A stretch of 64,000 nucleotides of DNA. Origin: Psychrosphaera aestuarii. Lineage in GTDB: Bacteria > Pseudomonadota > Gammaproteobacteria > Enterobacterales > Alteromonadaceae. The stretch spans positions 2,914,001-2,978,000 of the forward strand of contig NZ_CP072844.1 in NCBI RefSeq assembly GCF_017948405.1, written 5' to 3'. Positions 43,181 to 58,572 of this stretch are shown one piece after another; within the stretch, counting starts at the first letter, position 1, and every line of letters starts with the position of its first letter. The notes beneath the pieces were generated by a model. The model was not told the origin of the DNA. It saw only the letters and a list, made by a program, of their open reading frames with translations, and ran no database searches. The position numbers and the translations under genes are program-made.

Positions 43181-44155
43181 TTAACTCGAGCTCAAGTTTG
43201 CTAAGTCTACAGGGCTCTTCGTGAAACCGAACCTATTTCCCAAAATGTGGGTATAAATTTCTGTTGTTTTTAAATCAGAATGCCCTAACAACTCCTGCAC
43301 TGTTCTGATGTCGGTTCCCATCTGCAGAAGCTGGGTCGCAAATGAATGCCTAAACGTATGTGCCGTTACTCGTTTTGTCACACCACTAGCGGATACTGCT
43401 TTCCTTAATTGTTTCCTAAACGCCGACTCATGGATATGATGACGACAAATATAACCATCAAATGGATGTACGCAACGCGAGGATGACAGGAAAAGATATT
43501 GCCAACAAAAGTCCTTCGCAGCGTCACCAATTTTACGCTTCAGCCCTAAACTCATTGATGTAAAGCCCTCTCCTTCACTCAAGTCGCGTTCATGAATTCG
43601 GCGAGCCAATCTAATTTGATCTTGTAACGGCGCAATTAACGACATTGGCATTATCGTATACCTGTCTTTAGCCCCTTTCCCTCTATGAACAAGAATGGTT
43701 TTATTTTCGAAATTTAGGTCTTTTATCCTCAACTTAAGTACTTCATTGATTCTAAACCCTGAGCCATAAAGCAATGCAGTTATAAGCTTGTATTTGCCTT
43801 TCATCTGCATGAGAATTTCTTGCGCCTCATGAGACTCTAGAACCGTTGGCAACCGCTTAGGCTTGGTTGTATTAGAATAAGACAGCCCCTCGATTTCACG
43901 TTTTATAACATTCCTATACATAAATATAATTGCACACAAGGCTAGATTTTGTGTTGCTGCACTGACTTTTCTATCAACCGCTAGATAATTTAGAAAGCGC
44001 TCAATATCTAAGTTGCCTAAATCCTCTGGATGGCGCATGTCACAAAAGCGAATAAAATTTACAATCCAATAAATATAACTCTTTTCTGTTTTTAAACTGC
44101 ATCTGCGCGTCCGCATTTCAATCCGAACCGTTTCTATAAAGGGAATTTGTTTCAT
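43181..44155 (-). CDS. intI: Integron integrase IntI
   Basis: This 324-residue tyrosine recombinase has all five catalytic residues: Arg135 (GFRINEVL), Lys160 (RGKGAKDR), His266 and Arg269 (HTFRH), His292 (GHSD) and the nucleophile Tyr301 (IYTH). The insertion between about residues 222 and 252 (SSSRCVHPFDGYICRHHIHES) is the IntI-specific patch that recognises folded attC sites and separates integron integrases from XerCD. The start at 44155 has GGAG at six bases; the 13 extra upstream codons overlap a LexA-like box. The gene is intact, so the array may still be active. Confidence 0.97.
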   Translation of the reverse strand: MKQIPFIETVRIEMRTRRCSLKTEKSYIYWIVNFIRFCDMRHPEDLGNLDIERFLNYLAVDRKVSAATQNLALCAIIFMYRNVIKREIEGLSYSNTTKPKRLPTVLESHEAQEILMQMKGKYKLITALLYGSGFRINEVLKLRIKDLNFENKTILVHRGKGAKDRYTIMPMSLIAPLQDQIRLARRIHERDLSEGEGFTSMSLGLKRKIGDAAKDFCWQYLFLSSSRCVHPFDGYICRHHIHESAFRKQLRKAVSASGVTKRVTAHTFRHSFATQLLQMGTDIRTVQELLGHSDLKTTEIYTHILGNRFGFTKSPVDLANLSSS

Positions 44156-44163
44156 AATGACTC

Positions 44164-44183
44164 CACTGTGTTTATACCCAGTT
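44164..44183. promoter_or_regulatory. LexA-box-like sequence upstream of intI
   Basis: CACTGTGTTTATACCCAGTT matches the LexA consensus (CTGT-N8-ACAG) in 7 of the 8 core positions, and it overlaps a perfect 12-base palindrome CAGTTATAACTG at 44179-44190. It begins 9 bases upstream of the intI ATG. SOS control of integron integrases through LexA is established in Vibrio and class 1 integrons; here it is an inference. Confidence 0.45.
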
Positions 44184-44194
44184 ATAACTGTCAT

Positions 44195-44484
44195 TTTTCT
44201 AGTCTGCGAATTAATCTGTACCCTATATCTAAATTTTGTATCGGTTTGCGAATTCGACGCCCTGATATTTATTTAAGAAAACAATAAAATAGCTAAAACA
44301 GATAAAATTAAACAAGAATAAAACTGAACCCTCTTTTTATTTTCTCGTTTTTACCCGAAAAGTTTTTCTTTCAAACTTTTTAATAATTATCTACAGTACT
44401 GATATTAAATAAATAAATTCGTGTAATAGACAATATCTTATTAAGTCGACAAGTCAGCTTAAAAAGAATTCCACCTAATACACT
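44195..44484. other. intI-attI intergenic region
   Basis: This AT-rich segment of about 290 bases holds no gene. It should contain the intI promoter, any cassette promoter Pc and the accessory part of attI. I could not pick out a convincing -35/-10 pair reading into the cassettes. Confidence 0.5.
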
Positions 44485-44491
44485 GTTATGT
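44472..44491 (+). other. attI recombination core
   Basis: GTTATGT at 44485-44491 is the first GTTRRRY-like box of the array and lies 16 bases before the start codon of the first cassette gene. An ACCTAAT half-box is 6 bases to its left, giving an inverted simple site. Since no palindromic attC arm precedes it, this is the attI junction rather than an attC. Confidence 0.6.
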
Positions 44492-44506
44492 GTATTGGAG
44501 ATTTAA

Positions 44507-44773
44507 GTGACACACGGAGGAGCTGGAGCAATATTTCCATTATTAGCGTTGCTCGTTTTAGCTTTACCAATAATTTTATTTTGGGTCTTTCGTGGGTCTG
44601 GTAATTTCCAAAAAAGACGACTTATTGGCTTTAGTCAATTAGCAGTTTTGGCTCTATCAATCGTTTTATTCTTTACAGGTATCGAGCAATTGCAAAGCAT
44701 TGGTTTTGGTACAGCGTTTATTATTTTATTAAGTATGCTATTTACACCAGTCATATTTAAAAACCGAGTGTAA
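44507..44773 (+). CDS. Cassette 1: small membrane protein, unknown
   Basis: The 88-residue protein is almost wholly hydrophobic, with three likely transmembrane helices (residues about 8-28, 40-58 and 65-83) and a basic loop FQKRRLIG between the first two. The start is GTG with GGAG at eight bases. I recognise no family. As the first cassette it is closest to any array promoter. Confidence 0.7.
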   Translation: MTHGGAGAIFPLLALLVLALPIILFWVFRGSGNFQKRRLIGFSQLAVLALSIVLFFTGIEQLQSIGFGTAFIILLSMLFTPVIFKNRV

Positions 44774-44778
44774 AATAC

Positions 44779-44897
44779 ACATAACAAACGCCTGAATTTG
44801 CTCGTAAACTCGCTCGGACAATTAACAATGGGTTATTGTCGCTTGCGCTCAATAATTTTAACCCATTGTTAAATTGCCGCTTAGGCGGGCGTTAGGT
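44779..44897 (+). repeat. attC 1
   Basis: From ACATAAC to GTTAGGT, 119 bases. The central stem pairs CAATGGGTTA with TAACCCATTG. Member of the CGCTCGGACAATTAAC family shared with the sites at 45804, 47146 and 49186. Confidence 0.9.
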
Positions 44898-44913
44898 ATA
44901 CAAGGATAGTACG

Positions 44914-45378
44914 GTGAAAAACTTAACTTTCGTTTTAATCTGCTTATTGCTTTCTCTCTCAAGCAACGTCAAAGCAGCTTTTACTTCTGCGCAATTAATT
45001 GAAAAAGCCAAAGCGTTTGTCTCAGCTAAAAATGCACGCCAACAGCCCAATTCAACAATAAAAGAAATTGATAATTATATTTCTTTACTCTCTGATGACT
45101 TTGTTGACGAGCACGTTAAATTTAAGTTTACTTATACAAGTAAAACGAAACTTCGTGAAGATATTGTAAGTAAACTCAAAGATAAAGTAGTTTACAGTAA
45201 TATCGAAATTATTGAGATCATGGTTGGTGCAAATGTTGTGTTTGTAAAAATGAATGAATCAGGCAAAGTAAAACCAGCTCATTTAGACAAAACAATTGAG
45301 TACAATAAAATCAATATTGTCTCTTTAGAATTTGATAACGCAGGATTAGTTAAGCATATTCGTCGACATCACGGCTAA
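44914..45378 (+). CDS. Cassette 2: exported NTF2-like protein
   Basis: The 154-residue protein begins with a signal peptide (MKNLTFVLICLLLSLSSNVKA) and continues with a single domain whose helix-then-strand pattern (IDNYISLLSDDFVDEH, then four beta segments ending VSLEFDNAGLVKHIRRHH) resembles SnoaL/NTF2-like folds. Such domains bind small ligands or act as enzymes; no catalytic residues are assigned. The start is GTG with AAGGATAG upstream. Confidence 0.7.
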   Translation: MKNLTFVLICLLLSLSSNVKAAFTSAQLIEKAKAFVSAKNARQQPNSTIKEIDNYISLLSDDFVDEHVKFKFTYTSKTKLREDIVSKLKDKVVYSNIEIIEIMVGANVVFVKMNESGKVKPAHLDKTIEYNKINIVSLEFDNAGLVKHIRRHHG

Positions 45379-45383
45379 TGTAT

Positions 45384-45480
45384 ACCTAACAAGTGGTTCA
45401 AGAAGGTCTCGTAATAGCTTGCTCGAGCCTTCGGCAAACATTTTAGCAAGCTAAACTCGCCTCTTAACCAGGCGTTATAT
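45384..45480 (+). repeat. attC 2
   Basis: From ACCTAAC to GTTATAT, 97 bases, with the arms AGCTTGCT and AGCAAGCT in the centre. Founder of the family shared with the sites at 46728, 47536, 50013 and 50462. Confidence 0.92.
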
Positions 45481-45504
45481 GTCTATTCGAAAATGGAGTT
45501 TGAT

Positions 45505-45801
45505 ATGAAACTAAACAAGTTAGTTTGGAAACGTTTTATCTTAATTGCTTTGTTTTTTCACCTCCCAATTGCAGCCATTTTAGTGGGAATAACTGGGGCG
45601 ATGTTACCAGCTTTGTTTTGGATAAATATTCCTGTGTTGTGGACTGGAATTGCAAGTGCAATGGGAGAAAGTCATTTTCTAATTCGAGAGTTTGGAGCTT
45701 TACCACAGTCGGTATTGGCCTATGTTGTAATCTCGGGGTTTTGGCTAATAGTATCTTTTGCGATTTCAATTGTAAGTGTACGATTGTCTGAAAAGCTTTA
45801 G
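45505..45801 (+). CDS. Cassette 3: small membrane protein (copy A of a duplicated cassette)
   Basis: The 98-residue protein begins MKLNKLVWKRFILIALFFH and has three predicted transmembrane helices (about residues 10-28, 34-54 and 72-92). The ATG at 45505 is preceded by GGAG at six bases; an upstream ATG at 45493 overlaps that site. Nearly the same gene, with flanking attC sites of the same two families, recurs at 46848. Function unknown. Confidence 0.7.
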   Translation: MKLNKLVWKRFILIALFFHLPIAAILVGITGAMLPALFWINIPVLWTGIASAMGESHFLIREFGALPQSVLAYVVISGFWLIVSFAISIVSVRLSEKL

Positions 45802-45803
45802 AC

Positions 45804-45921
45804 ATATAACAAGCGCCTGAATTCGCTCGTAAACTCGCTCGGACAATTAACAATGGGTTATTGTCGCTGCGCTCAATAGTTTTAACCCATTGTTAAATCG
45901 CCGTTTAGGCGGGCGTTAAGC
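45804..45921 (+). repeat. attC 3
   Basis: From ATATAAC to GTTAAGC, 118 bases. Almost identical to the site at 47146, with the CAATGGGTTA/TAACCCATTG stem. Confidence 0.9.
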
Positions 45922-46225
45922 GCCCTACTGTTCTTCTGAGCAATGTGTGTAATTGAAGTTGTTCGTTCAAACTGGACGTGGGGACAGTTATATCGAGTGT
46001 ATTTTTAGTGTACGCTTGAGCGATACGCAACACATGCGAAGCTAGCTTCAACTTGTTGCTTTGATGCACAAGCATCAATGTAAAATTTTTATCCATATGA
46101 CAGATTTTGTGTCCGTATGTTTGTGTTTGTACTGCAACGTCTTTTTTACAATCGTTGCATCAGTGACCATGTTAGTGACAGTGTACGAAACGAACATCAC
46201 CACCGAGTAACAGGTGAGTAAAAGC
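45922..46225. other. Cassette 4: body with no convincing gene
   Basis: The roughly 300-base body between two attC sites has no open frame on the plus strand longer than 37 codons. A minus-strand frame of 63 codons runs through the preceding attC and lacks a ribosome-binding site. The cassette may carry a regulatory RNA, a promoter or a decayed gene. Confidence 0.6.
46097..46210 (+). CDS. Cassette 4: possible 37-residue hydrophobic peptide
   Basis: The frame begins MTDFVSVCLCLYCNVFF and ends at a TAA 15 bases before the attC R'' box, the usual position for a cassette gene. The centre could form one membrane helix, like small type I toxins. No ribosome-binding site is seen, so this may be chance. 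Confidence 0.22.
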   Translation: MTDFVSVCLCLYCNVFFTIVASVTMLVTVYETNITTE

Positions 46226-46326
46226 GCTTAACAAGCCTCTGAACCCAGACTCGCCAAAGCTGTCATGCTATTTGCTGGGCAAATCGCTCGCCAGCAATTA
46301 GCTCACTGGTTAACGGGGCGTTAGGG
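46226..46326 (+). repeat. attC 4
   Basis: From a perfect GCTTAAC box to GTTAGGG, 101 bases; centre pairs AGCTGTCATGCTATTTGCTG-side bases with CAGCAATTAGCT. Not a member of the recurrent families. Confidence 0.85.
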
Positions 46327-46331
46327 TTACC

Positions 46332-46727
46332 ATGAGGCATACTTTATTTTTAGTGTTAATGTTATCTTTTTATTGTCATTCAGAAAGCCTTAATCCACTA
46401 ATAGGACATTGGAAAACTGATCATGAGCGTACATTAGCGAGTACTAAAAAAAATACAAAAGCGTATCAATGTTTCCAACAAAAATTATGTGGCACTACAG
46501 ACTTAATCTTTTCAGAAAACGAGCTGATTTCTATTTCATATTCCCAAGATGGCGAAGAAATTATGAGGTATTCAGAGCCATATAAAATAACTTCATTTAA
46601 GGGTAATGAAATCACAATCTATTATCCTAAAAAAGACAAAAATTTTTCCTATCAAATAAAATCTAATGTGTTTTATTATTCATCGGAAGAACATGGTTTT
46701 ACAGAGTATTTTTTGCTAAAAAAGTAA
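46332..46727 (+). CDS. Cassette 5: small exported protein, unknown
   Basis: The 131-residue protein has a short signal peptide (MRHTLFLVLMLSFYCHSES) and a mature domain rich in beta-strand-forming residues, starting LIGHWKTDHERT, which recalls lipocalin-like 'GxW' openings. Two cysteines (YQCFQQKLCG) may pair. The family is not recognised. The frame stops just before the attC. Confidence 0.65.
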   Translation: MRHTLFLVLMLSFYCHSESLNPLIGHWKTDHERTLASTKKNTKAYQCFQQKLCGTTDLIFSENELISISYSQDGEEIMRYSEPYKITSFKGNEITIYYPKKDKNFSYQIKSNVFYYSSEEHGFTEYFLLKK

Positions 46728-46823
46728 CCCTAACAAGTGGTTCAAGAAGGTCTCGTAATAGCTTGCTCGAGCCTTCGGCAACATTTTAGCAAGCTAAACT
46801 CGCCTCTTAACCAGGCGTTATAT
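46728..46823 (+). repeat. attC 5
   Basis: From CCCTAAC to GTTATAT, 96 bases. One base shorter than the site at 45384 and otherwise nearly identical. Confidence 0.92.
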
Positions 46824-46847
46824 GTCTATTCGAAAATGGAGTTTGAT

Positions 46848-47162
46848 ATGAAACTAAACAAGTTAGTTTGGAAACGTTTTATCTTAATTGCTTTGCTTTT
46901 TCACCTCCCAATTGCAGCCGTTTTATTGGGAATAACTGGGGCGATGTTACCAGCTTTGTTTTGGATAAATATTCCTGTGTTGTGGACTGGAATTGCAAGT
47001 GCACTGGGAGAAAGTCATTTTCTAATTCAAGAGTTTGGAGCTTTACCGCAGTCGGTATTGGCCTATGTCGTAATCTCGGGGTTTTGGCTAATAGTATCTT
47101 TTGCGATGTCAATTGTAAGTGTACGATTGTCTGAAAGCTTTAGACATATAACAAGCGCCTGA
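46848..47162 (+). CDS. Cassette 6: small membrane protein (copy B, frameshifted C terminus)
   Basis: This 104-residue protein differs from the cassette 3 product by six substitutions in the first 96 residues and then by a one-base deletion in the GAAAAGC run near the end. That shift replaces the last two residues with SFRHITSA read into the attC. Three membrane helices are kept. The same GGAG and start are used. Two surviving near-copies suggest either recent duplication or repeated capture. Confidence 0.7.
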   Translation: MKLNKLVWKRFILIALLFHLPIAAVLLGITGAMLPALFWINIPVLWTGIASALGESHFLIQEFGALPQSVLAYVVISGFWLIVSFAMSIVSVRLSESFRHITSA

Positions 47163-47263
47163 ATTCGCTCGTAAACTCGCTCGGACAATTAACAATGGGT
47201 TATTGTCGCTGCGCTCAATAGTTTTAACCCATTGTTAAATCGCCGTTTAGGCGGGCGTTAGTT
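47146..47263 (+). repeat. attC 6
   Basis: From ATATAAC to GTTAGTT, 118 bases. Near-identical to the site at 45804. The end of the cassette 6 gene lies inside its left arm. Confidence 0.9.
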
Positions 47264-47295
47264 GTACTGGAATAATCTCATCACATGGAGTGCTT

Positions 47296-47541
47296 ATGAA
47301 AAATTTATCTGAAATTTGGTTTTGGTTTACTTTATTATTTTGTCCTATCGGCATTCTTGTCGGTATTTTTCAACTGGCCAGCCTTTCAGGATTTTGGCTA
47401 TATTCTGATACCGCTATATCAATGCACGAGTTACTTAAATCTGGCCAGTTAGTCATGATACTTGTAGGCTTTACTTGCGCTTGTGTTTTTGCTGACACCC
47501 TTAAAAAAGCTAAAATTCGCTTTCGAAGAAAGTACAACTAA
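47296..47541 (+). CDS. Cassette 7: two-helix membrane protein, unknown
   Basis: The 81-residue protein begins MKNLSEIWFWFTLLFCP and has two membrane helices (about residues 6-28 and 47-65) separated by a short polar loop, with a very basic C terminus (KKAKIRFRRKYN). The ATG at 47296 has GGAG at five bases; an upstream GTG overlaps it. Its stop codon lies in the attC R'' box. Confidence 0.7.
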   Translation: MKNLSEIWFWFTLLFCPIGILVGIFQLASLSGFWLYSDTAISMHELLKSGQLVMILVGFTCACVFADTLKKAKIRFRRKYN

Positions 47542-47632
47542 CAAGTGGTTAAAGAAGGTCTCGTAATAGCTTGCTCGAGCCTTCGGCAAACATTTTAGCA
47601 AGCTAAACTCGCCTCTTAACCAGGCGTTAGGG
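47536..47632 (+). repeat. attC 7
   Basis: From AACTAAC to GTTAGGG, 97 bases; same family as the site at 45384. Confidence 0.92.
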
Positions 47633-47636
47633 GCCT

Positions 47637-48113
47637 ATGAAGATTGTCGTCGCATTTATGTCCGCAATACTTTTACCAGCATTATTAATTACTGCTTGGT
47701 ACTTGTATGGCCAATTTGTTACTTTCGAACATGATGACCCCTATATCTGGGTTCGTACGCGAGGCTTTCTAGCTATCTGTATTGCAGTTTCAGCTGGCTT
47801 TGTTGTGTTTCTAGGTCTTCCTGCTTACTTTCTGTTACGTAAGTTTAATTCGGTAAATTGGTGGGCAACTTTAATTTCAGGCTTTGTTTTAGGAGCTATA
47901 CCAATGGCAATTTTTACATGGCCGTTAAGATATCCTGAAATGAAAACATCAGCGTCGGTAAATGGTGTAAAAACTATGATTGATGGTGTGCCCACTTTAG
48001 ATGGTTGGTTACAGTTTTTACAAGGTGTATCATTTTTAGGTGTTTGTGGCATGGCAGGAGCTTTGGCTTTCTGGCTAGTAGCCCCTAACAAGCCACTCAA
48101 GCAGGACAAATAA
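47637..48113 (+). CDS. Cassette 8: four-helix membrane protein, unknown
   Basis: The 158-residue protein has four predicted membrane helices (about residues 5-24, 42-66, 74-97 and 128-150) and a soluble loop between the last two. The last nine residues (PNKPLKQDK) are encoded by the left arm of the attC. The attC-derived AGGGG directly before the ATG can act as its ribosome-binding site. Family not recognised. Confidence 0.7.
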   Translation: MKIVVAFMSAILLPALLITAWYLYGQFVTFEHDDPYIWVRTRGFLAICIAVSAGFVVFLGLPAYFLLRKFNSVNWWATLISGFVLGAIPMAIFTWPLRYPEMKTSASVNGVKTMIDGVPTLDGWLQFLQGVSFLGVCGMAGALAFWLVAPNKPLKQDK

Positions 48114-48182
48114 CAGTTGGTTTTTGCTCCTTCGTCGCTTATTTTAACCAACTATTATTTACCTCTTAGCGGAGCGTTAGGT
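48083..48182 (+). repeat. attC 8
   Basis: From CCCTAAC to GTTAGGT, 100 bases, with the AGTTGGTT/AACCAACT stem. The 3' end of the cassette 8 gene lies within it. Confidence 0.85.
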
Positions 48183-48192
48183 GTACAAGTAC

Positions 48193-48612
48193 ATGCAGCC
48201 CAGATTGATTCTCGAGTTTTTACATAGTGACCCTTCTAAAATATGGGTAAATGCATGCAATAATTCCTTCGCAGGAGAAACTGAGCAATATATAAATGAT
48301 CAGATGTTGGAAGTACTTTCTGAACAATTAACAAATTTTCCTAAATCCGTCTCAGATGAAGTAACCTTAAAAGCTGGTGACGCTTGCTCAACTCATGGCT
48401 ATTGCGAGCTTAAATTCCATTGCTTCGATTCGACTGGCCATACGGCTGTCTTAATCTCGGTAGCCGATGACAATGAAAATGTTGCAAAATTTACAGTTCA
48501 GTTTGAGGCGTCATCATTGGATGGTTTTGTATCTTCTATCAAACTTGCTTTAAAGTCAGGATCGGGTGTATCAGAATTAATTGGTATAAAGCCGTATACA
48601 CAAAATGTGTAA
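48193..48612 (+). CDS. Cassette 9: soluble protein, unknown
   Basis: The protein of 139 residues begins MQPRLILEFLHSDPSKIW and alternates strands and helices without a signal peptide or membrane helix; five cysteines are scattered. A GTG at 48181 inside the attC R' box could add four residues. Size and fold pattern would suit an immunity or antitoxin-like protein but nothing specific is recognised. Confidence 0.6.
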   Translation: MQPRLILEFLHSDPSKIWVNACNNSFAGETEQYINDQMLEVLSEQLTNFPKSVSDEVTLKAGDACSTHGYCELKFHCFDSTGHTAVLISVADDNENVAKFTVQFEASSLDGFVSSIKLALKSGSGVSELIGIKPYTQNV

Positions 48613-48616
48613 GTAC

Positions 48617-48727
48617 ACCTAACAAGCGCATTAAGTCAGACGGTTCAATTTGTCCGATTTTTTGCAAATATAAACGACGCAAAAAAGCGTCCAATTAATT
48701 GACCCGCTTCTTATGCGGGCGTTAGGC
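48617..48727 (+). repeat. attC 9
   Basis: From ACCTAAC to GTTAGGC, 111 bases. Outer arms AACAAGCGCAT and ATGCGGGCGTT pair. A distinct sequence type. Confidence 0.85.
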
Positions 48728-48749
48728 ATACCAACAAGGAAGTCATAAA

Positions 48750-49181
48750 TTGAAATATTTAATCTTAATATCAACTTTATTTTTAGGTGCATGTAGCTCA
48801 ACCCCTAATGTCAATATAGCTGACACTATGAACTTAATAGCTTTAACCGAAGAAAATGCTCCTGATGGAGTAAAAGGTATTTTTAAGTTTCAGGTCAAAG
48901 CATCAGGAATTCGAAGAGGAGAAGTCTTTTTGAATACGGAGCTAGACTACCGAGACAGAAGAGCTGTAACTATTGCTATATCACCAAAAATTGTCTCGCA
49001 ATTAACCGATAAATACGGCTCATCACCTGGTACTTATTTCATTGATAAGACAGTAGAGGTTACAGGTGAGGCTAAACGAGTAAAAATATATTTCATTTAC
49101 AAAGGGTTAAAGACTAGTAAATATTACTTTCAAACACATATTAATGTATCTTCAATCGAGCAAATCAAGGTTTTGGGCTAA
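48750..49181 (+). CDS. Cassette 10: lipoprotein, unknown
   Basis: The 143-residue protein has a lipoprotein signal (MKYLILISTLFLGACSS, lipobox LGAC) and a mature domain of mainly beta-strands. The start is a TTG with AAGGAAG nine bases upstream; no ATG is available before the signal peptide. Likely anchored in the outer membrane. Family not recognised. Confidence 0.7.
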   Translation: MKYLILISTLFLGACSSTPNVNIADTMNLIALTEENAPDGVKGIFKFQVKASGIRRGEVFLNTELDYRDRRAVTIAISPKIVSQLTDKYGSSPGTYFIDKTVEVTGEAKRVKIYFIYKGLKTSKYYFQTHINVSSIEQIKVLG

Positions 49182-49185
49182 GTAT

Positions 49186-49301
49186 GCCTAACAAGAGCCT
49201 TAAGGCTCGCAAGCTCGCTCGGACAATTAACAATGGGTTATTGTCGCTGCGCTCAATAAGTTAAACCCATTATTAATTCGCCGCTTAGGCAGGCGTTAGG
49301 C
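49186..49301 (+). repeat. attC 10
   Basis: From a perfect GCCTAAC to GTTAGGC, 116 bases; a diverged member of the 44779 family (same central stem, different left arm). Confidence 0.9.
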
Positions 49302-49356
49302 TTATTGTCTCGCGGCGGCATTTTACAAAAAAAATTACTTAAGGAATAATTAGTAC

Positions 49357-50004
49357 ATGGAAAAGTTCAAAGTACCTCTTATTATTTTGCTATCAATTAT
49401 ATCGATAGCATTGTTCTATCAACATCAAAAAATTGTAGATGAAAATTCACTTTTAAAAATAAAATTATCTGAACGACTAGTTGTTTTAAAAGATACTTCT
49501 AAATCAATTATTGCCATTGATGACAATTGTTCCGAAAAATATCAAAATAACCCTATAAACAGCAGTAAAGTTACTAATGAAATAATCGAAAATGCCTCTA
49601 TTAACAACAGTGAAGTTACTACTGAAATAATCGAAAGTGACTCTGTTGTAGTTAATGAAGAAGGAAGTACTGAATTTGAAACAACCCAAGAAAATCGAAA
49701 TATCAAAACGGTTCCTTTTGAAGATCAAGAAATAGATTATGAATGGGCAACAACAATTGAAACAGCGGTTAGTGATGTTTTTATAACGAGTGAAATATTA
49801 GAGAATTTCACATTAGAAAATGTGGAGTGTCGTTCGTCTACATGTGAAGTTAGAATGCCTAAGGGGCAGGAAGATACATTTCACCAATCAGTACTAGTTC
49901 TTTTGGCTCTTGAAGAGGTAGGCATTAAGCATCACTCTTTAAAGATGAGTTCAGATACTGAAGAAGGTACTGTTGTGTTTTACTTTAGTAAACATGAATC
50001 GTAG
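49357..50004 (+). CDS. Cassette 11: membrane-anchored protein with internal repeat, unknown
   Basis: The 215-residue protein has an N-terminal membrane helix (residues about 5-22), a linker with a tandem repeat of about 16 residues (VTNEIIENASINNSE then VTTEIIESDS), and a C-terminal domain from about residue 125 beginning DYEWATTIETAVSDVF and containing the pair ECRSSTCEVRM, probably a disulfide. A periplasmic location is inferred. Ribosome-binding site AAGGA is present. Confidence 0.7.
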   Translation: MEKFKVPLIILLSIISIALFYQHQKIVDENSLLKIKLSERLVVLKDTSKSIIAIDDNCSEKYQNNPINSSKVTNEIIENASINNSEVTTEIIESDSVVVNEEGSTEFETTQENRNIKTVPFEDQEIDYEWATTIETAVSDVFITSEILENFTLENVECRSSTCEVRMPKGQEDTFHQSVLVLLALEEVGIKHHSLKMSSDTEEGTVVFYFSKHES

Positions 50005-50012
50005 TAAAATAA

Positions 50013-52069: not shown

Positions 52070-52070
52070 A

Positions 52071-52212: not shown

Positions 52213-52524
52213 ATGGGTTGGTTTAGTAAAAGTAAAGGCACGGATCCATTGTCCGTTTTCAATAAATACAGAAATAGGGCTAGAATCACTTCCTCTCACT
52301 ATATAGACCCCGATGGGTTTGAATACCCCAAATCATGTGTAGGTTGCCACGATTGTATTTTTAGAACCAAAGGAGGTTTGTTAGTGAATGGTTGTAAAAT
52401 TTACGACAAGCCAGATTCAGAAATGGCTGAAATTGTAAAGAATGTAATCTCTAGTAACTATTGCGAATACTTTTTAGATCGCTCATTTGATGATGCCGAT
52501 GAGGCCAGAAAAGAGCTTGGATAA
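52213..52524 (+). CDS. Cassette 16, gene 1: cysteine-rich soluble protein, unknown
   Basis: The 103-residue protein begins MGWFSKSKGTDPLSVF and has a CVGCHDC cluster near residue 43, with further cysteines at about 62 and 81, a pattern that could bind a metal or Fe-S cluster. AAAGGAG precedes the ATG. It is the first of three genes in the longest cassette. Family not recognised. Confidence 0.68.
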   Translation: MGWFSKSKGTDPLSVFNKYRNRARITSSHYIDPDGFEYPKSCVGCHDCIFRTKGGLLVNGCKIYDKPDSEMAEIVKNVISSNYCEYFLDRSFDDADEARKELG

Positions 52525-52535
52525 GGAAAAACACG

Positions 52536-52763
52536 ATGGCAATTTTTAAATTTGAAGCAAAAAAGATGAAGACTGGTGCGCATGTTAAAGTTGAGGTGTT
52601 TCTAGGGGGTAAGTCTAGAGGCTTTACATCCGAGCGAGCCGGCTCTCCACTGATGGTAGAAACTACACAATCAGGATCTTTTAGTTGGTACGCCAAAAGA
52701 ATGGGGAGTAAGGTCGACTCTGGAGAGTCATCAGGTGGAAACATATTGATCGCAGTTGACTAA
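52536..52763 (+). CDS. Cassette 16, gene 2: small beta-rich protein, unknown
   Basis: The 75-residue protein (MAIFKFEAKKMKTGAHVKVEV...) starts 11 bases after gene 1 with AAGGA upstream, so the two are an operon. The residues suggest a small all-beta fold. It ends just before a 15-base-pair palindrome. Family not recognised. Confidence 0.62.
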   Translation: MAIFKFEAKKMKTGAHVKVEVFLGGKSRGFTSERAGSPLMVETTQSGSFSWYAKRMGSKVDSGESSGGNILIAVD

Positions 52764-52770
52764 ATATACG

Positions 52771-52802
52771 TTTACGCCTAGATTATTTAATCTAGGCGTA
52801 AA
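52771..52802. terminator. Perfect 15-bp palindrome between cassette 16 genes 2 and 3
   Basis: TTTACGCCTAGATTA pairs with its exact complement across two central bases. It lies 7 bases after the stop of gene 2 and 18 bases before the start of gene 3. No GTTRRRY or RYYYAAC boxes are present, so it is not an attC, and no T run follows; a terminator or mRNA-stabilising hairpin is likely. Confidence 0.5.
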
Positions 52803-52820
52803 GCTCAGACGAGGTGGTTT

Positions 52821-53330
52821 ATGAGAAAGGAAAAATTATCCAAGGTAATTGATCAATACGCTGATTATATTAAGGATGGTTCTAATAACTGGGAAAAGAA
52901 AAATGATCATTTAATGGAAATGCTTCTTGACTCATGTGAAGAAGAATCAGAACCTTCCGAAACAATAGAAGAACCATTAATTGATTGCTATTGGAACGAC
53001 CTGCCAGCTTATAAGCTGATACTGCATCTAATTTATTTGTTTCACCTTGTTATCATGATTGTAACGTCTTTGGAGTTCTCATTTTCCTATTCATTTCGTG
53101 ACTTCTACGAGTATACACCATGGGGAATGTGGGGAATGGGTAACTATTTTTCCGCTATTGTTATGGTAATCCTCTATGGGTTTGGTGCAGTATGTCTTAC
53201 TTTTTTTGGGTCGGCGTTTATGAGCCTGTTTCTTAAAAACCATCTTTTGTCGCCCTATGGAAATTACAAAGCGTTTATTCCTTTTTACATTTTATTGATT
53301 CCATTTTTTGTAATACCTCTTATGGGGTGA
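52821..53330 (+). CDS. Cassette 16, gene 3: membrane protein, unknown
   Basis: The 169-residue protein has an acidic soluble N-terminal third (EEESEPSETIEEP) and three helices (about residues 68-90, 111-135 and 150-167). AGGTGG precedes the ATG. Family not recognised. It shares a cassette with genes 1 and 2 since no attC separates them. Confidence 0.68.
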   Translation: MRKEKLSKVIDQYADYIKDGSNNWEKKNDHLMEMLLDSCEEESEPSETIEEPLIDCYWNDLPAYKLILHLIYLFHLVIMIVTSLEFSFSYSFRDFYEYTPWGMWGMGNYFSAIVMVILYGFGAVCLTFFGSAFMSLFLKNHLLSPYGNYKAFIPFYILLIPFFVIPLMG

Positions 53331-53338
53331 GCACCAAA

Positions 53339-53433
53339 AACTAACAAGAAATTCAACAAGGACTAAAACAGCGGGCTATTCGCTTCGCTCCATTTTAGCC
53401 CACTATTTTTAGCCTGTTAATTAGGCGTTAACT
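53339..53433 (+). repeat. attC 16
   Basis: From AACTAAC to GTTAACT, 95 bases; GCGGGCTA/TAGCCCAC-type central arms. Confidence 0.83.
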
Positions 53434-53823
53434 TCACATAAAATTCTGCAACATAATTAATCTGTCGCAATATATTTGTGTCCTTAAATTAAAGTCCCCT
53501 TTCCTCTTTATTCTGAATTTATGAGTCTGCTTTAAGAGGCTATTTGCCATTATCACAAGACGCCAAGCCTAGCCGCTTGGCTATTGAAAGTTTCACTTTC
53601 CAATAACGTTCAGCAAGGCTTGAATTAGTTTCTACTGGTGATGTTTGATATTACTAACGATTTTGGAGCTTTTTTCTTTTAGTACTTACTATCGCCGCGC
53701 TCATGGCTTGGCTTATCAACTATTTGAGTAGTAGGCCTTCGGTTTTCTGAATAATTAGCGAGTTGATTTAGAAAGGAATTTAGGTAAAGTAGTTTTCTAT
53801 TATTTTCAGCGTTGTCTAGTGAT
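53434..53823. other. Cassette 17: apparently non-coding, structured
   Basis: The 390 bases between two attC sites have no open frame longer than about 20 codons in any sensible position. The middle, 53563-53622, can fold: CAAGCCT at 53564 pairs with AGGCTTG at 53616, enclosing a second stem (GAAAGT/ACTTTC with ATTG/CAAT); CCAAGC/GCTTGG is an alternative. It may encode a small RNA. Confidence 0.5.
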
Positions 53824-53925
53824 AGTTAACAAGCGCCTAAACTCCGTCAATGTTTCGTTGTCACGGTTTTGGCAAACAACGCAAAAAGCCGCGCCAACAC
53901 ATTGCGTGTTAGGCGGGCGTTATAT
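53824..53925 (+). repeat. attC 17
   Basis: From AGTTAAC to GTTATAT, 102 bases. Same family as the site at 50933. Confidence 0.9.
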
Positions 53926-53938
53926 TTACAGGGAAGTC

Positions 53939-54304
53939 ATGCGTTACATCACTTTAGTATTTGCCATCTTGTGTTTAATTAGTTGTGCATCAAAACCACC
54001 AGTACCAGACAGTTGCTCTGATATGGATTCATGTGTCTCTTTAGTTAAATCAAAGTTAGTATCAAATATGATGGTGGATAAAAAGTATGAAGGTTATGAA
54101 GTTAAGATAGAGTTTTTCTTAAATGACAATGCTGAAGTTGTAGAATATAAAGTAACAAGTGAATCAGGTTTGTTAGAGCTTGATAATGCAGGAATTGATG
54201 CTATTAAAAAATCATCTCCATTCACTGCAATTAAAGTTTTACCTTTAGAAGTTTTTAATGAATTTAAGCATGTCAAACTTACAATAATTCCAACATTTGA
54301 TTAA
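53939..54304 (+). CDS. Cassette 18: lipoprotein with TonB-C-like domain
   Basis: The 121-residue protein has a lipoprotein signal (MRYITLVFAILCLISC) and a domain with the TonB/TolA C-terminal pattern: VKIEFFLNDNAEVVEYKVTSESG, then LLELDNAGIDAIKKSSPF, then a final VKLTIIPTF strand. No membrane helix or proline-rich spacer exists, so it is not an energy transducer; it may interact with envelope partners. ATG at 53939 follows GGGAAG. Confidence 0.75.
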   Translation: MRYITLVFAILCLISCASKPPVPDSCSDMDSCVSLVKSKLVSNMMVDKKYEGYEVKIEFFLNDNAEVVEYKVTSESGLLELDNAGIDAIKKSSPFTAIKVLPLEVFNEFKHVKLTIIPTFD

Positions 54305-54310
54305 TTGTAA

Positions 54311-54408
54311 ATATAACAAGCTAATAAACAAGGACAAAAAACAGTTGGCTGTTTTCGTTCCTCAACATTTTAGCCAACAATTTTTTGCCCATTATTAGGG
54401 CGTTATAT
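54311..54408 (+). repeat. attC 18
   Basis: From ATATAAC to GTTATAT, 98 bases, with the AGTTGGCT/AGCCAACA-type central stem shared with the sites at 54728 and 56344. Confidence 0.87.
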
Positions 54409-54460
54409 TTACAATTGAATCGGTGAATCAATCACCAACAATTAAACTTAAGGATGGGTT

Positions 54461-54727
54461 ATGAAAAAAGTATTATTGGTAATATCAAGCGTTATAGCTT
54501 TAGCGGCTTGCAATGAATCTAGTTTATTTTCTAAAGATTTAACTTCAGAGGAAGTACGCTGTGGCAGTAAACCTGCTGAAGTTGCATTTCAAATATTGGC
54601 TACGATAGATCCAGAACTAACGGATGAACACTTTGATATAAGTAAAACAATCGAAGTTTATAAAGCCGAGGGATGTAGTGCTGAGTTTGTAAAAGACGCT
54701 TTGCATGCAATGACTAGCGAAAGGTAA
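54461..54727 (+). CDS. Cassette 19: small lipoprotein, unknown
   Basis: The 88-residue protein has a lipoprotein signal (MKKVLLVISSVIALAAC, lipobox LAAC) and an acidic mature domain of about 70 residues with helical character and two more cysteines (EVRCGSK, AEGCSAE), which may pair. AAGGATGG lies upstream. Family not recognised. Confidence 0.7.
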   Translation: MKKVLLVISSVIALAACNESSLFSKDLTSEEVRCGSKPAEVAFQILATIDPELTDEHFDISKTIEVYKAEGCSAEFVKDALHAMTSER

Positions 54728-54827
54728 ATATAACAAGGCAATCAAGCAGGAAAATTTACAGCTGGCTGTTTTCACTGCGTTCAACATTTTAGCCAGCTAT
54801 AAATTTCCTCTTATTGAGGCGTTATGT
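54728..54827 (+). repeat. attC 19
   Basis: From ATATAAC to GTTATGT, 100 bases, with a GCTGGCT/AGCCAGC stem. Confidence 0.87.
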
Positions 54828-54845
54828 GCTTCAAGGAGCCTCAAA

Positions 54846-55313
54846 ATGTATTTAACTGCTAGAAATATCGTCGCTGTCTTATTTTTAGTTCTCATTCACT
54901 ATCCAACAGCATCGCATTCAAAGGAAAAAACAATGACTGCAAAAGGTAATTTCGAAATTGATTTAAAACCAGCTCAAGATGAGCAAAATCCAGCGGGCAG
55001 AATGCTTATCAACAAAGTCTATTCTGGCGACCTCCAAGGAAAGGGAAGCGGCCAAATGCTTAGTAAACGCACAGAAAGTGGCGCGTCAGCTTACTCAGCC
55101 ATAGAAGAATTCCAGGGTAATATAGGTGGTAAAACAGGTGGATTCACACTTGTACACAATGGGTATATGACACCAAGCGAACAAAAATTAGAAATTATTG
55201 TGTTATCAGGATCAGGAACAGGGGAGCTTGCAGGTATTACAGGCACTATGGATATTATTCAAACAAATGGTGGTCATCACTACGTTCTTAGCTACGAGTT
55301 ACCACGCACATAA
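54846..55313 (+). CDS. Cassette 20: exported DUF3224 protein
   Basis: The 155-residue protein has a signal peptide (residues about 1-25) and a DUF3224 domain: MTAKGNFEIDLKPA, GRMLINKVYSGDLQGKGSGQML, GGFTLVHNGYM and SGTGELAGITGTMDI, followed by HHYVLSYELP. The fold is probably a beta barrel of the allene-oxide-cyclase type; function unknown. AAGGAG precedes the ATG. Most DUF3224 proteins are cytoplasmic and start at a position equal to residue 30 here, so export is a local addition. Confidence 0.82.
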   Translation: MYLTARNIVAVLFLVLIHYPTASHSKEKTMTAKGNFEIDLKPAQDEQNPAGRMLINKVYSGDLQGKGSGQMLSKRTESGASAYSAIEEFQGNIGGKTGGFTLVHNGYMTPSEQKLEIIVLSGSGTGELAGITGTMDIIQTNGGHHYVLSYELPRT

Positions 55314-55412
55314 CAAAGCGCTTAACACGTTCACTTCGTTCACTGGGACAGTAACGCAGCGGCGCTTCGCGATTATGCCGCTACGTCACTGCCCGTTAGC
55401 TTAGCGTTAGTT
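55308..55412 (+). repeat. attC 20
   Basis: From ACATAAC to GTTAGTT, 105 bases. The right side reads CCCGTTAGCTTAGCGTTAG, important for seeing that the last attC at 58472 is incomplete. Confidence 0.87.
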
Positions 55413-55447
55413 GCAAGGCGTCTAATCCAGTTTCGGAGTATAAAATT

Positions 55448-56374
55448 ATTAAGATTACATTAGTTCTAATTTTCACCTTCTTGCTAAATACGGCTAATGC
55501 GAGTGAATGGGTAGATACAACACAGCATAAAATACATTACGTAGAAATGGACGACAATATAAAATTAGAGGTTGTTGATTGGGGTGGCAAAGGTACACCT
55601 CTTGTATTTCTTGCTGGCCTTGCTCTTAATGCTCATACGTTTGATCCATTAGTTTCTTCGTTTGTTGATTCATATAGGGTTATCGGTATGACTCGTGTTG
55701 GTCATGGAAACTCAGAATCCCGAAATGAAAATTATTCAACAGCTAGGTTAACTAAAGATATCATTACCATTTTAGATAAAATGAATATTGAGAATGCTAT
55801 TTTTGCAGGTCACTCTTTTGCTGGAGGTGAGTTAAATCATCTAGGAAGGCATTTTCCTGAAAGAGTAAAAGGCCTAATTTATATCGATGCTATCCAAGAT
55901 TTAAATTATATGGACAGCCACTTAGCAGTGTGCCCAGACTTAGGTTACGCAACAATAGATATATTAAAGTATCAAGATAATTTCTATAATACACAGAGAG
56001 TTAAAAATCCTGATGGTAGCTATTTACCATATGCTGACCTCTCAGTTTTGGGGAGGTTCCTTACTGAAGAAGAAGAACGTCATTACTCTGGAATCGAAGC
56101 GCCTGCGATTGCAATTAGTCATATACCAGAACAAACAAAAGACTTTTTCATTGGCTTAGGTAATCCTACCCAGAAGTGCTTTGAAGAGATGAACAAGCTA
56201 ACTTACCTTGGTATCGCTAGTTTTATAAAAGATAAACAAAATGCAGATGTGGCAGCCATTCAGAATAGCCAACACATGATGCATATGGCGACACCTGAAA
56301 AACTTGTTATGGTGATGAAAAATTGGCTTGCGAGAACATTTGCAACTAACAAGGAAATTAACAAGGACACGTAA
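55448..56374 (+). CDS. Cassette 21: exported alpha/beta hydrolase, probable ATT start
   Basis: The protein has the alpha/beta hydrolase fold: PLVFLAGLALNAHTFDPL (oxyanion region), the nucleophile elbow GHSFAGG with the serine, YIDAIQ after strand 6 and the final histidine in NSQHMMH. A signal peptide (KITLVLIFTFLLNTANA) lies in frame only if translation begins at an ATT at 55448, nine bases after CGGAG; the first standard start, a TTG at 55481, would remove most of it. The C terminus runs into the attC. Substrate unknown. Confidence 0.75.
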   Translation: MKITLVLIFTFLLNTANASEWVDTTQHKIHYVEMDDNIKLEVVDWGGKGTPLVFLAGLALNAHTFDPLVSSFVDSYRVIGMTRVGHGNSESRNENYSTARLTKDIITILDKMNIENAIFAGHSFAGGELNHLGRHFPERVKGLIYIDAIQDLNYMDSHLAVCPDLGYATIDILKYQDNFYNTQRVKNPDGSYLPYADLSVLGRFLTEEEERHYSGIEAPAIAISHIPEQTKDFFIGLGNPTQKCFEEMNKLTYLGIASFIKDKQNADVAAIQNSQHMMHMATPEKLVMVMKNWLARTFATNKEINKDT

Positions 56375-56446
56375 CAGTTGGCTACGTTTCGCTTCGCTAC
56401 ACAATTTTAGCCAACCATTACTTAGCCTGTTATTTAGGCGTTAGCT
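56344..56446 (+). repeat. attC 21
   Basis: From AACTAAC to GTTAGCT, 103 bases; AGTTGGCT/AGCCAACC stem. Confidence 0.87.
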
Positions 56447-56460
56447 GCTTGAAGGACTTA

Positions 56461-56985
56461 ATGGACATGGATTTTGATACTAAACTAAAAAACGCAGAGT
56501 TTTGGTTTACACAAGCGTCTCAAATGTTTGAAGCATCAAAGGCTTTATTTAACTCAATGACTTCAAAGGATTCATCAGATGAACTTCGAGTTGGTGCGCA
56601 TAAAGGATCTCTTTTTTTACTAGGAATAGCCACTGAAAATGCTTTCAAAGGAGTTTTGGCTTTTAAAGAAGAACTAAAAATTGAAAATGAGAGACTAAAA
56701 CCAATTACCCCAAAAGGTGTTTCTCCCCATGACTTGGAATGGCTTTCAGAAAAAATAGGCCATACTTTTTCTGAAAAGGAGATAGAGTTGTTTAAACGCT
56801 TAAGTGTATACACCATCTGGGCAGGTAAATACGGAACACCTCTAAAGAAAAGTGAGTTCCTCAAAGATAAAGGGGCACTGTTTCAGAGCGAATCCGATTA
56901 CGATGTTATATCTGACGTTATCTCAAGGCTCAAGATCGAAGCTGGATTCAATAAGAATTCAGGATGGCCATCATTACGCAGCTAA
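56461..56985 (+). CDS. Cassette 22: HEPN-like protein
   Basis: The 174-residue helical protein has a pattern seen in HEPN domains: a GSLFLLGIATENAFKGVLAF helix near residue 49, an SPHDLEWLSEKIG segment near 88 and a final LSVYTIWAGKYGTP helix near 115. The RNase-type R-x4-6-H motif is not evident. HEPN proteins often act in toxin-antitoxin or phage defence, or bind nucleotidyltransferases; no partner is present here. ATG at 56461 has AAGGA at five bases. Confidence 0.6.
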   Translation: MDMDFDTKLKNAEFWFTQASQMFEASKALFNSMTSKDSSDELRVGAHKGSLFLLGIATENAFKGVLAFKEELKIENERLKPITPKGVSPHDLEWLSEKIGHTFSEKEIELFKRLSVYTIWAGKYGTPLKKSEFLKDKGALFQSESDYDVISDVISRLKIEAGFNKNSGWPSLRS

Positions 56986-57096
56986 CAAACGCATAAACAC
57001 TCGCTGCGCTCGCTAGGGACAAAAACACGTAGGCTCCCTGCGCTTCGCTTGGTATTGTAGCCTACGTATTTTTGCCCGTTATGCGGGCCGTTAGCT
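56980..57096 (+). repeat. attC 22
   Basis: From AGCTAAC to GTTAGCT, 117 bases; central ACGTAGGCT pairs with AGCCTACGT. Confidence 0.87.
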
Positions 57097-57109
57097 TTCA
57101 AGGAACGAT

Positions 57110-57826
57110 ATGAGATTGTGTCTAATATTGCTGTATTTAACTACGTTCAGTTTTATTACTTGCGCCAAAAGTGAAACACCGCTGTCGGAGCTAGCATCAC
57201 ATATAAGGCTTCCTTATCAAAAAGGAGAACATGTATCTCCATCAGAATTAAAGTTATACGAATTACAAATAAAAATGATTGGTGAATCCTTTAAAAGTAA
57301 AGAACCACTTTGCTACAACTACGATGAGCCATATCAAAAAATACAAAAAGAACTGGCGATATTGGTAGCTAAATCAGCTGTTAGTGATTCCAAGTATATT
57401 TTAGAAGCTGCTGTAATGGCTGATAGCTTCTCTGATGTTAAGCGGCTAGTTGAAGCTGGAGCTCCTTTTATTACTCGCAGACTGTCATGGGGAGCCAGTC
57501 TGTTACATATTGCTGCAATTCATTCCAGCCCGAAGGTCATAAATTACCTTCACTCTCAGGGAATAGACGTAAATATAAAAATTGAAGATACTGGTGTTAC
57601 CCCTTTACATCTGGCAGTTAATTCAAACAAAACTATGAATATAGTAGCGCTAGTAGAGCTTGGAGCGGATGTAAACGCTAAAGATGATCAAGGTTCAGTT
57701 CCAATAATTAACACATTTGGTTGTAAAGACATCGATACTTTTAATTACTTACTTAAAAAAGGCACTAAAATTTACCCCAAAGTTATTGAGGTGGCTGATA
57801 AAATAGGTGCAAACATTGAAAGCTAA
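57110..57826 (+). CDS. Cassette 23: exported ankyrin-repeat protein
   Basis: The 238-residue protein has a signal peptide with a possible lipobox (FSFITCAKS) and three ankyrin repeats in the C-terminal half: SLLHIAAIHSSPKVINYLHSQGIDVN near residue 129, TPLHLAVNSNKTMNIVALVELGADVN near 163 and a weaker third. They would mediate protein binding in the periplasm. AAGGAA lies before the ATG. The partner is unknown. Confidence 0.82.
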   Translation: MRLCLILLYLTTFSFITCAKSETPLSELASHIRLPYQKGEHVSPSELKLYELQIKMIGESFKSKEPLCYNYDEPYQKIQKELAILVAKSAVSDSKYILEAAVMADSFSDVKRLVEAGAPFITRRLSWGASLLHIAAIHSSPKVINYLHSQGIDVNIKIEDTGVTPLHLAVNSNKTMNIVALVELGADVNAKDDQGSVPIINTFGCKDIDTFNYLLKKGTKIYPKVIEVADKIGANIES

Positions 57827-57923
57827 CAAGTGCCTAAACCAAAGGACGCAAAACAGCAGGCTTGCGCTCCTTCGTCGCTAATTTTAGCCTGCTATTTTAT
57901 TGCCGCTTAGCAAAGCGTTAGAT
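57821..57923 (+). repeat. attC 23
   Basis: From AGCTAAC to GTTAGAT, 103 bases; AGCAGGCT/AGCCTGCT stem. Confidence 0.87.
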
Positions 57924-57964
57924 TCTTTGGAAACTTATTTATTCTGAACAGCAAAAGGACTTAC

Positions 57965-58459
57965 ATGGTTTCTCTTCGAGACTTCACCGAAAATGATATT
58001 AATAGTCTTGTTACTATTTTAAATGACGAATCAGTAACGCAATTTCTATCCACCAAAATCCCTTTCCCATATACGCTAGAAGACGCAAAATGGTGGGTAA
58101 GCGAAGGAAGCCAAGGCGACTTAATAAAAGCTATAACAGTTAACGGTCAATTTGCAGGTTGTATTGGCGTAAACCGCGGCGAATTCGAATATCAAAAGTC
58201 GGGAGAAATCGGGTATTGGATTGCACAAGAGTTCTGGCGAAAAGGTGTCGCATCTTCAGCTTTAAACAAAATGTCAGAGTACGTTTTTTCGCACACCGAT
58301 ATTGTTCGCCTTTTTGCATCTGTATTTTCTGGTAATGCTGCATCAATGGGCTTACTTTTAAAATGTGGCTTTACTCAAGAAGCGGTGTTGCAAAAGGCCA
58401 TTTTTAAAAACGGACAGTTCTACGATAATTATGTCTTCGCTAAACTGATGTCGTTTTAG
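57965..58459 (+). CDS. Cassette 24: GNAT acetyltransferase, RimJ/RimL-like
   Basis: The 164-residue protein matches the GNAT fold of RimJ/RimL-type N-acetyltransferases: LRDFTENDINSL at the start, GEIGYWIAQEFWRKGVASSALNKM near residue 81 (acetyl-CoA loop Q/R-x-x-G-x-A variant RKGVAS), and NAASMGLLLKCGFTQEAVLQ near 120. The acceptor amine is unknown. AAAAGGA precedes the ATG. It is the last intact cassette gene. Confidence 0.88.
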   Translation: MVSLRDFTENDINSLVTILNDESVTQFLSTKIPFPYTLEDAKWWVSEGSQGDLIKAITVNGQFAGCIGVNRGEFEYQKSGEIGYWIAQEFWRKGVASSALNKMSEYVFSHTDIVRLFASVFSGNAASMGLLLKCGFTQEAVLQKAIFKNGQFYDNYVFAKLMSF

Positions 58460-58471
58460 AATGCGAGAAAA

Positions 58472-58572
58472 ATCTAACAAGGCGCTTAACTCGTTCCCTT
58501 CGAACACTGGGAAACAAGCACGCGGCGGCTTCGCCATTTTCGCCGCATGTTTGTGCCCGTTAGCTTTCTTAT
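58472..58572 (+). repeat. attC 24, truncated on the right
   Basis: The left side (ATCTAAC, then GGCGCTTAAC) and the GCGGCG/CGCCGC centre are intact, but after CCCGTTAGCTT the expected AGCGTTAG is missing and unrelated sequence begins. The related site at 55308 shows the full form. Without the R' box it should not recombine normally, which marks the end of the array. Confidence 0.75.

Follow-up and report, generated by a model that had tools for sequence, protein, structure and literature searches.

The genome of Psychrosphaera aestuarii harbours a complete sedentary chromosomal integron next to rsmD, in the 64,000-nt stretch analysed here (contig NZ_CP072844.1, positions 2,914,001 to 2,978,000, forward strand; hereafter the window, to whose first letter all positions refer). 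We hold this reading with a probability of about 0.94. The integron consists of an integrase gene, intI, a putative attachment site attI beside it, and an array of 24 cassettes reaching from the cut point at 44485 to 58568, the cassettes being delimited by matching each inverse core site with a core site according to position. An earlier note on this DNA, made from the letters alone, had described an intact chromosomal integron, and this description stands: the intI product scores 376 bits with the integron integrase model TIGR02249 (cut-off 265), and attI, the attC array and the rsmD-flanked site accompany it. As judged by comparison with relatives, the cassettes are mobile units whose content varies from one species to another.

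Integrase, attI and attC sites

The closest solved relative of the intI product is IntI4 of structure 2a3v (249 bits over residues 19-328 of a 337-aa frame). The catalytic residues R, H, R, H and Y, all five of which had been reported earlier, are invariant in 29 of 29 aligned IntI sequences, including the window integrase. Translation of intI probably starts at ATG 44155 and not at 44194, because a LexA-like box (CTG-N10-CAG) would otherwise fall within the longer frame. The same genome contains lexA (254 bits). With a LexA-like site and lexA both present, intI is classed as a putatively SOS-controlled integrase. The motif CTG-N10-CAG was found close to the integrase start in 11 of 16 integron platforms (210-290 nt around the start examined), its exact position being inspected in 3 of the 11. 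Putative LexA sites are reported for 56.6% of 1,103 intI sequences (PMC3108266).

Based on the anatomy of the locus, attI was assigned beside intI, its insertion point in the window being placed by a 12-nt match of cassette ends. The core next to GTTAT is alike in the four platforms compared and lies about 310-340 nt from the integrase start; the insertion point in the sister species G005 rests on a 5-nt match.

Aligned without structure, attC 1-23 give the attC fold with its R and L architecture, and in 14 of the 23 pairs at least one sequence has changes on both sides. Several attC families occur within the array. A model built from the first 23 window sites (R1) recovers 24 of 24, the terminal one at 24.9 bits only. 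For a second model (R3), 24 attC were taken from a different array in this genome, two weaker sites there being excluded. R3 recovers 23 of 24; since its source sites were located with the window's model, it is independent in sequence and not in search. It has four more matches in the 64 kb, each the reverse-strand shadow of an array site. A covariance search thus does not fail on most sites, the outcome that the earlier note had named as counting against its claim. The terminal site scores weakly with R1 and escapes R3; it is therefore regarded as degenerate, and the 24 attC sites of that note become 24 cassettes with 23 intact attC.

The rsmD site in related genomes

The window genome (G000) was compared with G005, a sister species of the same genus, and with further genomes; the comparison is therefore one between species. 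According to coordinates, rsmD adjoins an integrase in G000, G005 and G007, and lies far from the integrase or on a different contig in G001-G004; rsmD was not found in G006. The rsmD site of G005 possesses an orthologous open integrase, 69% identical to that of the window. In a tree of 29 IntI, the window integrase groups with that of G005, and the integrase of G007 groups separately with a second integrase of G000 and that of G006 (both groups 100/98). Lineage A is hence found at the rsmD site of G000 and G005 and lineage B at that of G007 (G007:C1:1722363-1723979). Because the tree splits G000 and G005 from G007, integrases of two lineages occupy a single chromosomal site.

The site is chromosomal and is not borne on a mobile element, as judged from the 3.05-Mb contig, the rsmD flank and the occurrence of the same site in G005; no dedicated transposase search was made.

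Cassette turnover between species

A set of 247 cassettes was cut by script from 18 attC clusters of nine genomes, with the first cassettes padded and one G005 attC at a stretch border left out. The cutting covered nearly all attC of G000 and G005, and 15 of 21 in G001, 6 of 36 in G002, 8 of 41 in G003, 37 of 57 in G004, 6 of 16 in G006 and 8 of 16 in G007. Only three of the 24 window cassettes (8, 9 and 17) have a DNA match in another species, and two (8 and 17) match the rsmD array of G005. Gene order is therefore not conserved at this site in the other species, and the conserved order without cassette changes that the earlier note had set against its own claim is not seen.

Cassette pairs between G000 and G005 are 70 to 99.7% identical, three of them at 93.9, 97.1 and 99.7%. 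Between the same two genomes rsmD is 71% identical and the ftsY core 81%. Since some cassettes reach 94-99.7% identity against 71% for rsmD, the cassettes move. Identical whole cassettes were also found as three pairs between the two arrays of G005, and as two pairs within the arrays of G004. The second attC cluster of G005 (G005:C3:209842-254387) spans 44.5 kb and holds 74 attC plus one cut at the border; no integrase remnant was found around it in the 59 kb examined.

The ends of the cassettes are in line with mobility. In 116 of 174 non-redundant cassettes the two ends of the cassette form inverted repeats 10-12 nt long. Where ends adjoin one another in the array, the commonest match length is 4 nt (105 of 225). 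A long match within the cassette and a short one between neighbours are expected of units moving as circles. The longer pairing was considered as a new feature and dropped, as PMC2727003 already gives 9-11 complementary nt for most cassettes.

Several observations weigh against the integron as read here. The terminal attC is degenerate. A search for the cassette promoter (Pc) gave 38 promoter-like matches against a shuffle mean of 45, so that Pc is not singled out. The LexA-like box deviates from the usual consensus, and no CTG-N10-CAG was found around the integrase start in five of the 16 platforms (G036, G054a, G006a, G007 and the Shewanella locus). For certain cassette pairs of G000 and G005, identity (70-79%) does not exceed that of the housekeeping genes, and no recent transfer is needed for them.

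What is observed is the anatomy of the locus, the folding of its attC sites and the turnover of cassettes between species. Catalysis, SOS induction and transcription of the window integron would be expected from what is established for the family. IntI would be made under LexA/SOS control, would recognise the folded bottom strand of attC, and would either excise cassettes as circles (attC x attC) or insert them at attI (attI x attC). Through such excision and insertion, the array would be a store whose small genes are reshuffled: they come and go, are duplicated, and pass to and from relatives.

Table 1. Positions of the integron, its cassettes and the flanking genes in the window.
Feature	Position	Strand	Description
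ftsY	41059-42393		beyond rsmD
rsmD	42449-43102	+	left flanking chromosomal gene
intI	43181-44155	-	lineage A integron integrase; 324 aa when read from ATG 44155; frame open to 44194
LexA-like box	44166-44181	-	CTG-N10-CAG, 10 nt before intI start
Putative attI/leader region	44156-44485	+	insertion point at GTT beginning at 44485; similar core motif in 3 other platforms
Cassette 1	44486-44891	+	ORF 44507-44773 (88 aa), attC 44779-44897
Cassette 2	44892-45474	+	ORF 44914-45378 (154 aa), attC 45384-45480
Cassette 3	45475-45915	+	ORF 45493-45801 (102 aa), attC 45804-45921; 98% identical to cassette 6
Cassette 4	45916-46320	+	no ORF >=70 aa, attC 46226-46326
Cassette 5	46321-46817	+	ORF 46332-46727 (131 aa), attC 46728-46823
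Cassette 6	46818-47257	+	duplicate of cassette 3, ORF about 46836-47162, attC 47146-47263
Cassette 7	47258-47626	+	ORF 47290-47541 (83 aa), attC 47536-47632
Cassette 8	47627-48176	+	ORF 47637-48113 (158 aa), attC 48083-48182; 94% identical cassette in G005 rsmD array
Cassette 9	48177-48721	+	ORF 48193-48612 (139 aa), attC 48617-48727; 79% identical cassette in second G005 cluster
Cassette 10	48722-49295	+	ORF 48750-49181 (143 aa), attC 49186-49301
Cassette 11	49296-50103	+	ORF 49357-50004 (215 aa), attC 50013-50109; 99% identical protein named Psychrosphaera sp.
Cassette 12	50104-50553	+	ORF 50124-50393 (89 aa), attC 50462-50559
Cassette 13	50554-51027	+	ORF 50573-50938 (121 aa), attC 50933-51033
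Cassette 14	51028-51714	-	ParE/RelE-like toxin 51037-51324, Phd/YafN-like antitoxin 51314-51562 (below cut-offs), both minus strand; attC 51618-51720
Cassette 15	51715-52158	+	ORF 51752-52069 (105 aa), attC 52071-52164
Cassette 16	52159-53427	+	three ORFs 52213-52524, 52536-52763, 52821-53330; one attC 53339-53433
Cassette 17	53428-53919	+	ORF-less, longest ORF 40 aa; 18 further copies in G005; attC 53824-53925
Cassette 18	53920-54402	+	ORF 53939-54304 (TonB C-terminal-like), attC 54311-54408
Cassette 19	54403-54821	+	ORF 54461-54727 (88 aa, lipoprotein signal), attC 54728-54827
Cassette 20	54822-55406	+	ORF 54846-55313 (DUF3224), attC 55308-55412
Cassette 21	55407-56440	+	ORF 55481-56374 (alpha/beta hydrolase), attC 56344-56446
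Cassette 22	56441-57090	+	ORF 56461-56985 (174 aa, unnamed conserved family), attC 56980-57096
Cassette 23	57091-57917	+	ORF 57110-57826 (ankyrin repeats), attC 57821-57923
Cassette 24	57918-58568	+	ORF 57965-58459 (GNAT acetyltransferase)
attC24	58472-58574	+	degenerate terminal attC; 24.9 bits with R1, missed by R3
Right flanking gene	59190-60023	+	43%-identical relative right of G005 array
ORF, open reading frame.

An ORF-less cassette in many copies

An open reading frame (ORF) shorter than 70 aa is the longest in 28 of 229 non-first cassettes, and 19 of these belong to the family of cassette 17. The family has one copy in G000 and nine copies each in the rsmD array and the second attC cluster of G005, where it makes up nine of the 26 cassettes of the rsmD integron. 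Identity over the 19 copies is 83-100%, and 83-99% between distinct ones. Among 16 distinct copies 153 of 405 columns vary, and one run of 24 columns is invariant. No ORF is conserved across these 16 copies; the longest has 69 aa and is read from the minus strand in 4 of the 19, and two short frames of differing lengths are seen in 15 and 12 of the 16. Three kinds of attC, including the one in the window, stand on the same cassette body, as if attC sites had been exchanged among copies.

Searches for cassette 17 in six other genomes of the genus gave no match. DNA searches covering the family (395 genomes) and the class (369 genomes) gave nothing convincing beyond G000 and G005, the class search matching G000 alone; such searches score few candidates per genome (6 of the 18 G005 copies were listed), so that distant relatives could be missed. 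A core model (R2) run with strict filters on 394 genomes of the order, G005 not being among those drawn, matched only G000. Weak matches in G028, G330 and G355 (E 4e-4 to 7e-4) have no attC in the surrounding 9.1 kb and were taken as chance. Even at a relaxed score Rfam gave no family for cassette 17 or the array, the one match then obtained standing at E 2.2 and 15.9 bits where the cut-off is 50.

Cassette 17 may act as a promoter, carry an RNA gene or be a selfish cassette, and the three readings are mutually compatible. That it is a promoter cassette, driving sense-strand transcription into the cassettes downstream, seems to us possible at somewhat less than even odds. It carries a sigma-70-like TTAACT-18-CATAAT at 53428-53457, the corresponding place reads TATAAT in 15 of the 18 G005 copies, and promoter activity is published for most of 29 gene-less Vibrio cassettes (PMC11014356). 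Nevertheless, two promoter-like sites in the stretch compare with 1.5 expected from shuffles, the -35-like hexamer is the recombination core itself, and a conserved body of 400 nt would exceed the needs of a promoter.

A structured non-coding RNA encoded by cassette 17 is a tentative and rather unlikely reading. The invariant run (shuffle p 0.001), the uneven conservation (p 0.0015) and the lack of a conserved ORF are in its favour, as is the consensus fold of the sense strand (z -4.6, with 0 of 60 shuffles as low). However, the minus strand too folds lower than all of its 60 shuffles (z -2.4); the margin by which the sense strand lies below it exceeds that in 60 of 60 shuffles, and a cruder test with 15 shuffles gave z -3.5 for the sense and -2.7 for the minus strand. 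Seven other cassette families served as control (8 to 35 shuffles each), in which the protein-coding pair of cassette 9 reached z -4.5. Five copies of cassette 17 alone gave z -1.6 in this test. Because a coding control scores as strongly, the fold score loses most of its weight as support for an RNA. Folds of single sequences are likewise not unusual (z -0.68 and -0.55). Some figures for a structure taken from the same alignment are in favour of an RNA: paired cells amount to 98.2% against 97.6, cells with changes on both sides to 9 against 4.4 in shuffles, and 2 of 500 shuffles attain the covariation score. Pairs with changes on both sides, at 3 of 86 against a shuffle mean of 2.5, are counted against it. 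A more far-reaching version, in our view improbable, is a regulatory RNA with a defined structure, up to about 370 nt long, that has multiplied to a third of an array and occurs in both arrays of one genome; its copy number would then set the dose of an array-wide or cell-wide regulator.

Comparably doubtful to an RNA gene is a selfish or neutral cassette that recombines well. Copies stand next to each other in G005 (cassettes 3-4, 7-8, 15-17 and 23-24 of one array, 12-14 of the other), and identical copies occur in both G005 arrays. The invariant blocks lie inside the body, away from the recombination ends, which argues against this reading, although gene conversion could also leave them.

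Other integrons and attC loci of the genome

The window lies on a single 3.05-Mb contig, which also encodes a second complete integron (G000:C1:1456734-1476726). Its integrase gene, at 1.476 Mb, is intact and its product is 53% identical to the window integrase; 26 attC matches stand beside it, two of them weak (36.4 and 29.2 bits). Elsewhere in the genome lie two integrase-less clusters, with 8 and 3 attC, and a single isolated attC. In total, at least 62 attC matches were found in G000, including the 24 of the window; at E <= 0.01 there are at least 61, 60 of them in four clusters, and two of these clusters adjoin the two integrase genes (150 of 1424 candidates were scored in the genome-wide search). 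A 451-aa gene adjoins the second integron; it presumably encodes an ABC1-type kinase.

The second integrase (lineage B) might move cassettes in trans while the window integrase is now inactive or rarely active, which we regard as improbable. In favour of this rival, the lineage B frame runs open for 320 aa and is accompanied by a LexA-like box, the two platforms have similar attI cores, attC families are common to both G000 arrays, and the integrase-less G005 cluster (74-75 attC) shares three 100% identical cassettes with the rsmD array. Against it, the frame of the window intI is open and lacks none of the catalytic residues, and the G005 orthologue is open as well.

Several intI in one genome are known (PMC9229058), and more than one per genome is given for over one fifth of integron-containing lineages (PMC2426708). 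P. aestuarii is like these genomes in this respect; what goes beyond them is the one rsmD site that holds lineage A in G000 and G005 or lineage B in G007. A literature search for two integrons on one chromosome together with a cluster of attC sites lacking integron-integrases (CALIN) found none, and one on integrons in Psychrosphaera gave a single paper, on quinolone resistance.

Proteins encoded by the cassettes

Pfam was searched with 24 of the 25 array proteins, the duplicate in cassette 6 being left out. Seven match above the gathering score, with the families ParE toxin, TonB_2, lipoprotein signal (the only match of cassette 19), DUF3224, alpha/beta hydrolase, ankyrin and GNAT. The antitoxin of cassette 14 stays just below the cut-off (28.5 against 29.8). 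As 17 of the 24 lack a Pfam match, the statement of the earlier note that more than two thirds of the proteins are unrecognised holds. NCBIfam, used on 20 array proteins, found the toxin above cut-off and two more proteins only below it.

A hydrophobic 19-mer was detected in 13 of the 22 window cassettes with an ORF of at least 70 aa and in 121 of 218 such cassettes overall; 10 of 34 ORFs from positions 1-41000 of the window have one, in a set with a different length cut-off (at least 150 aa). Enrichment of signal peptides in cassettes is already published (PMC10963911).

The protein of cassette 22 has 17 relatives besides itself and a conserved RLS-Y-T-WAGKY stretch. Profiles of the cassette 22 and cassette 11 proteins found no solved relative at E <0.1. 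Cassette 16 contains a palindrome of 14 pairs (52771-52802) between its second and third ORF, which may mark the fusion of two cassettes. Two candidates for defence were rejected after a PADLOC search with 10 proteins: the ankyrin protein of cassette 23 matched PDC-M72A in its repeat part (E 4e-11), and the RelE-like toxin of cassette 14 matched a CARF-RelE model (E 0.009).

Directly right of the array, at 58908-58997, lies a tandem run of a GTTTTCA-like 7-nt unit. Rfam at gathering score gave one match in the whole window, the L31 ribosomal-protein leader (RF03157) at 24685-24745, and no family for the array.

Comparison with known systems and significance

The superintegron of Vibrio cholerae comprises a divergent intI, attI and an attC array with mostly unknown cassettes. 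The window integron is built likewise, and the closest solved structure of its integrase is the IntI4 of that system. Unlike the superintegron, it has 24 cassettes and several attC families in one array, and its contig carries another complete integron.

Multi-copy non-coding cassettes are already known from Vibrio, and cassette 17 is another of that kind. The Vibrio cassettes are ORF-less, more than 80% identical between species and present in many copies, with one family numbering 45 in one V. vulnificus strain and 34 in another, and selfish, promoter or RNA roles have already been proposed for them (PMC1382264). Similar to these, cassette 17 lacks an ORF, is conserved over its full length and occurs in multiple copies. 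In contrast to them, and compared by description, it belongs to another genus and was found by DNA only in G000 and G005; the non-coding limit of PMC1382264, an ORF of 150 bp, is exceeded by the minus-strand frame in 4 of the 19 copies. A cassette acting through RNA is exemplified by the sRNA-Xcc1 cassette of Xanthomonas (via PMC8876359 and PMC12444791). That cassette also encodes SymE. For cassette 17, a role through a promoter or an RNA is a candidate one.

The integron itself is ordinary, and its value lies in the comparisons that it allows, with two platforms, five attC loci, a shared rsmD site and an amplified ORF-less cassette. Within one genome of the marine genus Psychrosphaera, two lineages of integrase and five attC loci are open to comparison, and sister species of the genus differ in the integrase lineage found at the rsmD site. 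With one copy in G000 and 18 in G005, cassette 17 provides a compact case for the function of ORF-less cassettes.

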